Shown: positions 2,545 through 7,102 of the stretch, piece after piece | Layout of the letters: every line of letters begins with the position of its first letter | Numbering within the stretch: position 1 is the stretch's first letter | Origin: Lachnospiraceae bacterium | GTDB lineage: Bacteria > Bacillota_A > Clostridia > Lachnospirales > Lachnospiraceae | Direction: 5' to 3' | Length of the DNA stretch: 7,102 nt | NCBI GenBank assembly: GCA_017960415.1 | Contig: JAGCZE010000286.1 | Location: 1 to 7,102 of the forward strand | Notes under the pieces: model-generated | What the model was told of the DNA's origin: nothing | The model's input: the letters and a program-made list of their open reading frames with translations, nothing else | Databases searched by the model: none | Translations under genes and position numbers: made by a program

Positions 2545-5178
2545 TTAGTTCTCTTCTTCTTCCTTCTTGAGTGCCTTTCCTGCTACGATCGCACCGGCGA
2601 TGATGCAGGTAAGACCCATTCCGAAGAATACTGCTACAGGAGTGGTTCCTGTCTGAGGAAGTCCCTGCGGTACCTCGGGAAGACCAACATCTTCAAGATC
2701 TTCGGGCTCATCTTCAGGAGCGCCCTGAGGAGTCTCGCTGGTAGCAGGAATATCATCTAACACCTCATCATCTGCAGGTGTTCCCTCGGGAATCTCGGGT
2801 ACCTTTACATCAATTGTATCATCATCAGGTGTTCCTTCGGGAGTTGTAGGAGGAACAACATCCTCTACAACCTCTGAGGTCTTGGGAGCAGTCTTGTAAA
2901 CAACTGTCTCATTTACATTGTTCTCAGGCATTGTGCCAGCAACAACTGCTTTATCAGGTGTGTAGCCTTCGATTGCGGGTGATGCAACGCTGTAGTTGCT
3001 GCCTGCTTCAAGATAGCTGACTGCAGGAGCTGCTGCAGAGGTTCCATCCTCGTAAATGTACTCAACTGTCAGAGTGTAAACAAAGTTTACTGAACCGGAA
3101 GGAGTAGGATCTGAAGGAGTGGTAGGTACTACAGGAACATTGGGCTCTTCCTTGGGATCTTCCTTAGGGTCTTCCTTGGGATCTTCCTTCGGCTCTTCCT
3201 TCGCCATATCGAAGTAGATTACGAATGTCTTATTAGCTTCGTCAATAATGTACTCGGTATTATCAGCGTTTACTCTGAGGCTGAACTTCTCATCCTGGCC
3301 GGCGAACTTTGTGTCAACTGCAGAAGCAGTCTTCTTAACATTGTCATTGCCAAATGCAGGTGTTGTGCCTTCGGGAGCCTGTAATGCCTTCTCAAAATCG
3401 ACATGATCAAGAATTTCTGCACCATTCATGAAATTGTAAACGATGTTCCAGTCGATAGTTTTGGGCTCTTCTTCCTTGGGCTCTACATACTCGTAGTAGA
3501 TGTTGATGACTTTCTTCTCTTTATTGAAAGAATACTCGGTTTCATCTGCGTTAACTTTCAGAACATAATCGGTGTACTTTGCATCAATTTCTGTAGCAGG
3601 CTTAATAACATCTTCATTGGTAAATTCAGGTGTCTTATCTTTCAGAACCTTGATCTGATTCTTTTCAACGGTTTCAACTTCTTCACCCTTTACGAAGTTG
3701 TAAACAACTGTCCAGTTATCATATTCAGGCTGGGGCTCTTCATAATCGAAGTAAAGAGTAAGGGTTCTGAAGTCATCGTTAACAGCTACTACGATCACGC
3801 CATCGGCGTTAACTCTCAGGATATACTGATCATCAAGTCCGGTATATTTCTCAGCTACTGCTGATGCGGTTGTCTTGATTTCTTCTTCATCTACAGTTGA
3901 CTTGATCTTATTACCGTCTGATACAGGAATTTCATTTTCAGGAGCCTGAAGAACATCTACAAAGTCAACATGATCAAGAACATCTTCGCCGTCCATGAAA
4001 TTGTAAATTATAGTCCAATCAACTATCTCGGGCTCGGGCTCAACATAATCGAAGTAGATATTGATGATCTTGTTTTCATCATCAAGACTAAATTCGGTTT
4101 CATCCTCATTAATTCTCAGAACATACAGATCATCCAGATCGGTGTACTTCTCGTCTACTGCAGATGCAGTCTTAATAACATCGTCATTATCAAAATCAGG
4201 AGTTTCATCCTTTGTAACTGTAATTGTATCTTCTAACTTAATGCTGTCAATTTCATCATCTTTAACGAAGTTGTAAACAACGGTCCACTCGTCAATCAGC
4301 ATATCGTAGTAGATCGCGATAATGTGCTTGCTGCTGTCAAGGTTAAACTTGGTTCCATCTTCATTGGTTCTCAGAGCGAACTGGTTATCCTTGTATGTAT
4401 TCTCACTTACGAGAGATGCTGCAAGAATATCATCATTGTCGAAATCAGGAGTTGTATCCTGAGGAACCCTGATTGTTTCATCCAAGGAGATGCTGCTAAG
4501 GGATTCGTTGTTCTTCATGAAGTTGTAAACTACAGTCCAGATATCATAGGTATTTACAACACCGTCAACATGGAATCTGCCGCCTACTTCATGACCATCG
4601 ATCTGATACTTGATAATGTACCAGTTAATTTCCCAATCAGGAACATATGCGCCTTCTTCAACATTGGTAAACAGGCGATGTGCCATATATTTGGTAGCCA
4701 CATTATTAAGTGTGGTATAATCAGATTCGCTCAGAACGTTTTTAAGAACGCCTTCAACCAGATTTCTGGAATTCTCGTTTTCCTCAATCATCATTTCGTT
4801 CAGGTTCTTGGCATCGCTGTACTCTTCGCTATCGTAGTAGTTGTTCAATGCGCTTCTGATTTCTCCGACAACTGCATCATCAGATACTAAGATCGAAAAT
4901 CTGCCAGCGTTACCGGTCTCCTCAGGAACCGAATGAATCTGATTGTAATTACCTTCAGGCTGTCCGTCATATCTGTCATGATTGTCGGTCATGTCAACGC
5001 CGGGCTGATTGGGTTCCTGGATAACGCTGAACACCATATCAACGGTATTGCCCGTCTCAGGCGAAGTATGCCAGTCATGTGACTCTGCAAACGCCTTCAC
5101 GCCACTGGTAGAGAAAACAAGCGATACAGCTGCGATAACTGCCAGAGCTTTTGTTGCTAACTGTGAAAACTTTTTCAT
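2545..5178 (-). CDS. LPXTG-anchored repeat surface protein with MucBP-like domain
   Basis: This 877-residue protein is exported and, by its sorting signal, covalently attached to peptidoglycan by a sortase. Order of parts: signal peptide 1-31 (MKKF start, hydrophobic core, cleavage after AFA); an unrecognised, partly helical acidic N-terminal region to about 180; a short WYIIKYQIDG...FHVDG segment (186-206); five degenerate repeats of 84-101 residues starting at W214, W298, W388, W489 and W577, each opening W[TN][VI][VI]YNF and closing with a strand such as INIYFDY; a PKED linker (about 661-679); a MucBP-like domain (about 698-762: LTVEYIYEDG...EGYTPDK...VVYK); an acidic Pro/Thr linker; and LPQTG at 840-844 with a membrane segment (847-867) and a short tail KKEEEEN. 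It is probably an adhesin or surface-layer component; the ligand is unknown. An AGGGAGG 5 nt upstream supports the start. It looks like a single-gene transcript ending in the strong terminator at 2467-2499. Confidence 0.92.
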   Translation of the reverse strand: MKKFSQLATKALAVIAAVSLVFSTSGVKAFAESHDWHTSPETGNTVDMVFSVIQEPNQPGVDMTDNHDRYDGQPEGNYNQIHSVPEETGNAGRFSILVSDDAVVGEIRSALNNYYDSEEYSDAKNLNEMMIEENENSRNLVEGVLKNVLSESDYTTLNNVATKYMAHRLFTNVEEGAYVPDWEINWYIIKYQIDGHEVGGRFHVDGVVNTYDIWTVVYNFMKNNESLSSISLDETIRVPQDTTPDFDNDDILAASLVSENTYKDNQFALRTNEDGTKFNLDSSKHIIAIYYDMLIDEWTVVYNFVKDDEIDSIKLEDTITVTKDETPDFDNDDVIKTASAVDEKYTDLDDLYVLRINEDETEFSLDDENKIINIYFDYVEPEPEIVDWTIIYNFMDGEDVLDHVDFVDVLQAPENEIPVSDGNKIKSTVDEEEIKTTASAVAEKYTGLDDQYILRVNADGVIVVAVNDDFRTLTLYFDYEEPQPEYDNWTVVYNFVKGEEVETVEKNQIKVLKDKTPEFTNEDVIKPATEIDAKYTDYVLKVNADETEYSFNKEKKVINIYYEYVEPKEEEPKTIDWNIVYNFMNGAEILDHVDFEKALQAPEGTTPAFGNDNVKKTASAVDTKFAGQDEKFSLRVNADNTEYIIDEANKTFVIYFDMAKEEPKEDPKEDPKEDPKEEPNVPVVPTTPSDPTPSGSVNFVYTLTVEYIYEDGTSAAAPAVSYLEAGSNYSVASPAIEGYTPDKAVVAGTMPENNVNETVVYKTAPKTSEVVEDVVPPTTPEGTPDDDTIDVKVPEIPEGTPADDEVLDDIPATSETPQGAPEDEPEDLEDVGLPEVPQGLPQTGTTPVAVFFGMGLTCIIAGAIVAGKALKKEEEEN
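2656..2841 (-). repeat. P-[EQ]-G-x-P linker repeats ending in the sorting motif
   Basis: In the surface protein, residues 780-841 contain four copies of P[EQ]GxP at 780, 797, 817 and 837 (PEGTP, PEGTP, PQGAP, PQGLP), spaced 17, 20 and 20 residues and separated by acidic stretches. The last copy shares its final LP with the LPQTG sorting signal. The segment is probably an extended wall-spanning stalk. Confidence 0.75.
3142..3198 (-). repeat. PKED/PKEE 12-bp tandem coding repeat
   Basis: Residues 661-679 of the surface protein consist of consecutive P-K-E-[DE] tetrapeptides, encoded by 12-bp tandem units (plus-strand GGATCTTCCTTG and close variants). They join the last large repeat to the MucBP-like domain. 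Such a unit can gain or lose copies by slippage without breaking the reading frame. Confidence 0.85.
3199..4539 (-). repeat. Five large protein repeats of the surface protein
   Basis: On the minus strand the units are R1 4539-4288, R2 4287-4018, R3 4017-3715, R4 3714-3451 and R5 3450-3199. Each has W[TN][VI][VI]YNF, then an acidic strand/turn section, a TP.F.N[DE]D-like segment (altered in R3), a TASAV..KYT-like segment, an LR[VIT]N.D segment and a final I[YF]F[DE]-type strand. R2 and R4 share NFVK..E and KD.TP; R3 and R5 share LDHVDF and LQAPE. The order therefore reads A-B-A-B after R1, which suggests duplication of a two-repeat block. I cannot place the unit in a named family with confidence; it may be an immunoglobulin-like or other beta-rich stalk module. 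Confidence 0.85.
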
Positions 5179-6784: not shown

Positions 6785-6789
6785 TTTAT

Positions 6790-6795
6790 TCCTTT
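6790..6795 (-). promoter_or_regulatory. Ribosome binding site of MATE gene
   Basis: AAAGGA on the minus strand lies 5 nt before the ATG at 6784. It is weaker than the sites of the other genes and sits immediately beyond the last unit of the tandem array. Confidence 0.65.
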
Positions 6796-6801
6796 ATTTA
6801 C

Positions 6802-6960
6802 GGTATCAGATAGCCTGGGATTGATTCTTTCTATGGTATCAGATATCCCCCAATCGATACATTTCTATGGTGTCAGATATCCCGCGATCGATACTTTCTT
6901 TGGTATCTGATATCCTTCGATCGTTATTTCCTACGGTATCAGATATCCAGCGATTGATAC
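6802..6960. repeat. Five-copy 33-bp tandem repeat array
   Basis: Plus-strand units start at 6802, 6835, 6869, 6902 and 6935, with lengths 33, 34, 33, 33 and a last partial unit of about 26. Each begins GGTATCAGATATCC (variants: TAGCC in the first unit, GGTGTC in the third, ATCTGAT in the fourth), then an [AG]ATCGATAC-like segment, then TTTCTAT. There are no unique spacers, so this is a simple direct tandem array. The unit at 6935-6960 lies inside the 3' end of the AEC transporter gene, where it encodes VSIAGYLIP. The other four fill the gap up to the MATE ribosome binding site. Confidence 0.92.
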
Positions 6961-7102
6961 AAACACCGGGATCACGATTATTGCCAGAAGCGTCGAATAC
7001 GAAACGATCGCGGCCGAAAGCTCCGCGTCGCGGTTAAACTTCGTTGCAAGCATGGTCGTCATTGCCGCACTCGAAGACGAGCAGGCGATCAGACAGGATA
7101 CA
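6931..7102 (-). CDS. AEC family transporter (auxin efflux carrier-like), C-terminal fragment
   Basis: Only the last 56 codons and the TAG stop (6933-6931) are in the window; the 5' part lies beyond the right edge. The translation contains SSSAAMTTMLATKFNRDAEL, then SAAIVSYSTLLAIIVIPVF, and ends VSIAGYLIP. This matches the end of AEC permeases (the auxin efflux carrier/malate permease family): a small-residue-rich membrane segment, a short charged loop (KFNRDAEL), and a last hydrophobic helix with ST and P. Family members move organic acids or related compounds across the cell membrane; the substrate here is unknown. The 3' terminal codons are also the first unit of the 33-bp array that continues downstream. 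It is upstream of the MATE gene on the same strand. The family call rests on a short segment. Confidence 0.72.
   Translation of the reverse strand, partial: VSCLIACSSSSAAMTTMLATKFNRDAELSAAIVSYSTLLAIIVIPVFVSIAGYLIP

Follow-up and report, generated by a model that had tools for sequence, protein, structure and literature searches.

Tandem copies of a permease gene's 3′ end as the probable origin of an intergenic minisatellite in a Lachnospiraceae bacterium

The window analyzed here, a 7,102-nt stretch of DNA from a Lachnospiraceae bacterium, raises the question of how a tandem array came to begin within the coding end of one transporter gene and to continue toward the start of the next. On the minus strand, an AEC-type permease gene is followed by a MATE-family transporter gene, and five 33-nt units run from position 6960 down to 6795 at spacings of 33, 33, 34, and 33 nt (Table 1). 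TRF reports the array at period 33 (6802-6960, 4.8 copies, 77% matches, score 183) and at period 67 (6799-6960, score 203), whereas 500 dinucleotide-preserving shuffles of 6785-6962 yielded 32 rows with a best score of 51. The self-match of the array at lag 33 is 0.559, compared with a maximum of 0.393 at that lag in 2000 shuffles and of 0.467 over all lags from 5 to 89 in a second 2000. The tandem array that a first-pass annotation had placed at the AEC gene end is thus real, and its head-to-tail copies, scoring at 203 when none of the 500 shuffles exceeded 51, are those of a minisatellite. We conclude that it is most probably a lineage-specific intergenic minisatellite, formed by tandem duplication of the end of the AEC gene and without a dedicated function.

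Table 1. Positions of the array units and of the flanking features in the window.
Feature	Position	Strand	Description
AEC-type permease gene, 3′ end (partial, past window edge)	6931..7101	-	From translation; stop TAG 6933-6931
Unit 1 (U1)	6928..6960	-	Coding AEC gene end: VSIAGYLIP, TAG, GAA
Unit 2 (U2)	6895..6927	-	Non-coding copy, ITIEGYQIPKK, without a stop; largest difference from U1, 9/33
Unit 3 (U3)	6862..6894	-	Non-coding copy, VSIAGYLTP and stop; then one extra T at 6861
Unit 4 (U4)	6828..6860	-	Non-coding copy, VSIGGYLIP and stop, frame shifted
Unit 5 (U5)	6795..6827	-	Non-coding copy, ESIPGYLIP and stop; its TAA ends 13 nt upstream of the MATE start codon
Spacer with AAGGA, ribosome-binding-site-like	6785..6794	-	Direct reading; precedes the MATE gene
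MATE-family transporter gene, 467 aa	5381..6784	-	Pfam MatE, E 1.5e-51; L001 orthologue 84% identical

As cut here, a unit consists of nine sense codons, a stop (lost in U2), and three further bases; the earlier count of 11 codons including the stop per 33 bp depends on the phase in which the unit is cut. The first-pass annotation had identified the first unit as the AEC 3′ end, reading VSIAGYLIP and then TAG, and had quoted peptides from later units (EGYQIP, KVSIAGYLTP followed by TAG, and GATACCGTAA at the end), all of which are present, the last being the end of U5. Its description of a persisting coding trace was correct as given but overlooked that U4 and U5, which follow the extra T, retain this trace in another frame. 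Pairwise, the five units differ at 3 to 12 of 33 positions (9-36%), U3 and U4 being the closest pair (3/33). Such differences are unexpected from misjoined or duplicated reads, and although the array is known from one assembly, we regard it as extremely improbable that the five units are an assembly artefact.

The gene that supplies the first unit can be characterized through L001, a locus from a Lachnospiraceae metagenome-assembled genome (G001) that is the nearest relative found, the comparisons having turned up no second genome of the window's species. The match of the AEC fragment in the window, to SBF, is weak and falls short of the curated cut-off, but the full-length orthologue in L001 was assigned to Pfam Mem_trans (E 1.8e-30). 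Across the last 57 codons, stop included, 56 are equal in meaning between the window and L001; because 30 of the codon differences are synonymous and 1 is nonsynonymous, the AEC tail is protein-coding and strongly constrained.

Comparison with relatives bears on which state came first. L001 has the order AEC-MATE as in the window, and its AEC gene ends in VSIVGYLIP followed by TAG at the same position; TRF finds no array at its AEC-MATE locus. The AEC-MATE pair is also kept in the more distant G009 and G005, again without an array, and none of these three relatives has extra copies of the unit. Between the AEC stop and the MATE start lie 146 nt in the window, 89 nt in L001, and 40 nt in both G009 and G005; the earlier proposal that copy number sets the spacing between the two genes stands as arithmetic, and a functional consequence is a hypothesis. 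When the last 33 nt of the AEC gene (stop included) were compared with the downstream flank, the window gave a copy matching at 26 of 33 positions, which 0 of 500 letter shuffles equalled. At 14 other AEC loci from 13 genomes, the next 180 nt held no copy of the last 33 nt, their best matches being equalled by 64 to 500 of 500 shuffles, in a test that omitted reverse-strand matches (G004 and G007 among them) and partial matches.

The proteins are consistent with this picture. Among the matches listed, the closest AEC homologues (P0001-P0017) terminate at residue 309 or close to it, one of them being N-terminally extended (P0015, 316 aa) and another having a different end (P0008, 311 aa). The last residues of P0002 are those of the AEC protein in the window, of which it may, from this identity, be close kin. 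No repeated tail was found within the last 60 residues of the AEC homologues listed (120 of 173). Given where the closest homologues end and that no repeated tail occurs among those listed, the AEC tail looks ancestral and not like an inserted repeat. Protein-level read-through into the array was also considered and was rejected, no repeated tail being present in any of these 120 of 173 homologues. Comparing the gap across related genomes, as the first-pass annotation had advised, showed the array to be absent from L001, G009, and G005, and its attribution of the array to the AEC gene end gains support from relatives in which a single coding tail occupies that position and the array is lacking. 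From these comparisons, the array appears to be the derived state and the single gene end the older one.

The unit could instead be a dispersed or mobile repeat that entered the AEC 3′ end and multiplied later. Intergenic arrays can consist of dispersed families, MIRUs for example, according to the available text of two reports (PMC12548453, PMC2734929). Searching nine relatives with the array as query returned the AEC tail of G001 as the top match (E 4.7e-4), the next standing at E 0.058. A wider search of 395 relatives, in which the two best candidates per genome were scored, produced a single match at E<=0.001 in each of two genomes other than G001, against a chance expectation of about 0.4; both matches lie within long open frames and are not arrays. 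There was no match to the array at E<=0.1 in 72,556 plasmid records or in 50,697 phage records, and no match to an 18-base pattern in viral contigs, and nothing in the window matched Rfam at gathering score. The 14-base core word GGTATCAGATATCC, allowing up to 2 mismatches, occurs 50 times in the whole G001 genome versus 5 times for the reversed control, an excess that in itself leans towards dispersal. We suspect that it reflects common words and do not take it as a repeat family, because the whole-array query matched only the AEC tail in that genome at E below 0.01. The first-pass annotation had reasoned that the same unit at unrelated loci would mark a mobile or dispersed repeat; no such pattern emerged from the relatives, plasmids, phages, and viral contigs, the window's own genome lying outside the search. 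With the tail coding and single-copy in relatives that have no array, a dispersed or mobile origin seems very unlikely, and a local duplication of the gene end is well supported by sequence comparison.

How might local duplication have produced the present arrangement? We propose that the last ~33 bp of the AEC gene, including the stop codon, were duplicated in tandem, presumably by slippage or unequal exchange. The first copy would have remained the coding end and the AEC protein would therefore have been unchanged, while the downstream copies, being outside the reading frame, would have drifted, presumably neutrally and in this order of events. Since the last tandem unit keeps the old downstream junction, the ancestral AEC stop may have stood ~13 nt before the MATE start. 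Some indication of age comes from four-fold sites in MATE codons 1-120, where the window and L001 carry different bases at 35 of 63 (56%, uncorrected). Because the units differ from one another by less, the array is probably younger than the split between the window and L001, provided that the units drift freely. Against plain drift, U3, U4, and U5 keep both the stop and the IxGYLxP reading, which decay need not preserve. Of the differences between U5 and U4 over the first 30 columns, 6 fall on third, 2 on second, and 1 on first codon positions, a third-position excess that would fit the two having parted while still coding, yet the codon-position bias across all units is not significant (third-position enrichment P 0.23; 7 of 16 extra letters in 30 columns).

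A further question is whether the array does anything in the gap it occupies. It could be a selected control element, acting as a row of binding sites, as RNA structures, or as a spacer that sets AEC-MATE coupling. Across the five units, only 3 of 70 letters depart in the little-changed 14 columns around GGATATCTGATACC, but a scan for a conserved core at eight window lengths gave its lowest P (0.042, uncorrected) at one length, and the conservation is not robust across the lengths scanned. Comparing substitutions among units for signs of selection, as had been advised, brought out no significant bias in codon positions and no robust core. The model of pairing leaves the MATE start region largely unpaired, to a greater degree than in L001 (0.84 versus 0.60). 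However, the region's transcript folds no more stably than expected by chance (z -0.20; 81 of 200 shuffles did as well), and of the unit hairpins, at -6.0, -0.9, -2.7, -5.3, and -1.5 kcal/mol from U1 to U5, those of U2, U3, and U5 are weak or absent. A structured RNA would be expected to fold beyond chance or to belong to a known family, and we found neither. The array as an RNA-structure element was rejected on these grounds, and the earlier suggestion that copy number would set the RNA structure between the two genes is not supported. The scan for promoters gave a single promoter-like site near the array, on the plus strand and thus opposite to the genes, where 0.8 would be expected by chance; no terminator-like site was found near it. 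In Mycobacterium tuberculosis, the length of the repeat between rnc and fpg1 goes with the fpg1 mRNA level, according to the available text of PMC2734929, which lends the idea of control a precedent. None of the 14 other loci tested has an array, and on balance we consider a selected control element improbable here.

The preferred reading, a minisatellite without a dedicated function, leaves a longer AEC-MATE spacer as the only likely effect of the array, and this spacer may loosen the translational coupling of the two genes. Because coupling is described as most efficient at small distance in the available text of PMC12548453, looser coupling is a fair prediction and not a result. In a bolder version, each unit would be a fossil of the AEC 3′ end of a different age, and the number of units would slowly tune AEC-MATE translational coupling; we judge this combination to be quite improbable. 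If copy number were to alter the coupling, the array would represent a simple tuning mechanism for two transporter genes.

Among known systems, the closest likeness is to bacterial intergenic minisatellites and VNTR loci such as VNTR3239, a tandem repeat between rnc and fpg1 in M. tuberculosis (PMC2734929), in that tandem repeats lie between two same-strand genes. To judge from the text available for that locus, the present array differs in that its unit was copied from the coding end, stop included, of the gene upstream; variation in copy number and an effect on expression would, for the present array, be hypothetical. MIRUs, described in the available text of PMC12548453 as apparently mobile elements that insert at start codons and whose ORF is coupled to the gene, are alike in being short repeats that lie next to genes and contain reading frames resembling coding sequence. 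Unlike the MIRUs described there, the array has a local source, its frames are stop-ended leftovers, and dispersed copies are absent from the relatives searched. The array shares part of its character with both and is most aptly classed as an ordinary minisatellite whose origin, from a local and still visible source, is unusually clear. Its value lies in making the origin of one bacterial intergenic minisatellite plainly visible, since the source persists as the coding first unit and the relatives are free of the array.

Stop-crossing arrays seem to be uncommon, judging from a small survey of 81 sequences (80 loci and the window; 879 kb, 717 ORFs of at least 120 aa, the AEC fragment in the window being too short to count), in which a single array with a period of at least 12 extended 8 or more bases to each side of an ORF stop. 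A literature search, judged by titles and the openings of abstracts among the entries listed, found no stop-spanning gene-end array. The one stop-crossing array listed in the survey, at L004 2851-2899, is a marginal two-copy repeat of 24 bp that extends 9 bases inside a 225-aa ORF. Elsewhere in the window, the gene at 2545-5178, which encodes an 877-aa MucBP-domain protein, contains a coding tandem repeat of 12/24 bp at 3140-3201 in a charge-rich, PKED-type linker, as well as longer, diverged repeats ~250-270 and 560-570 bp apart.
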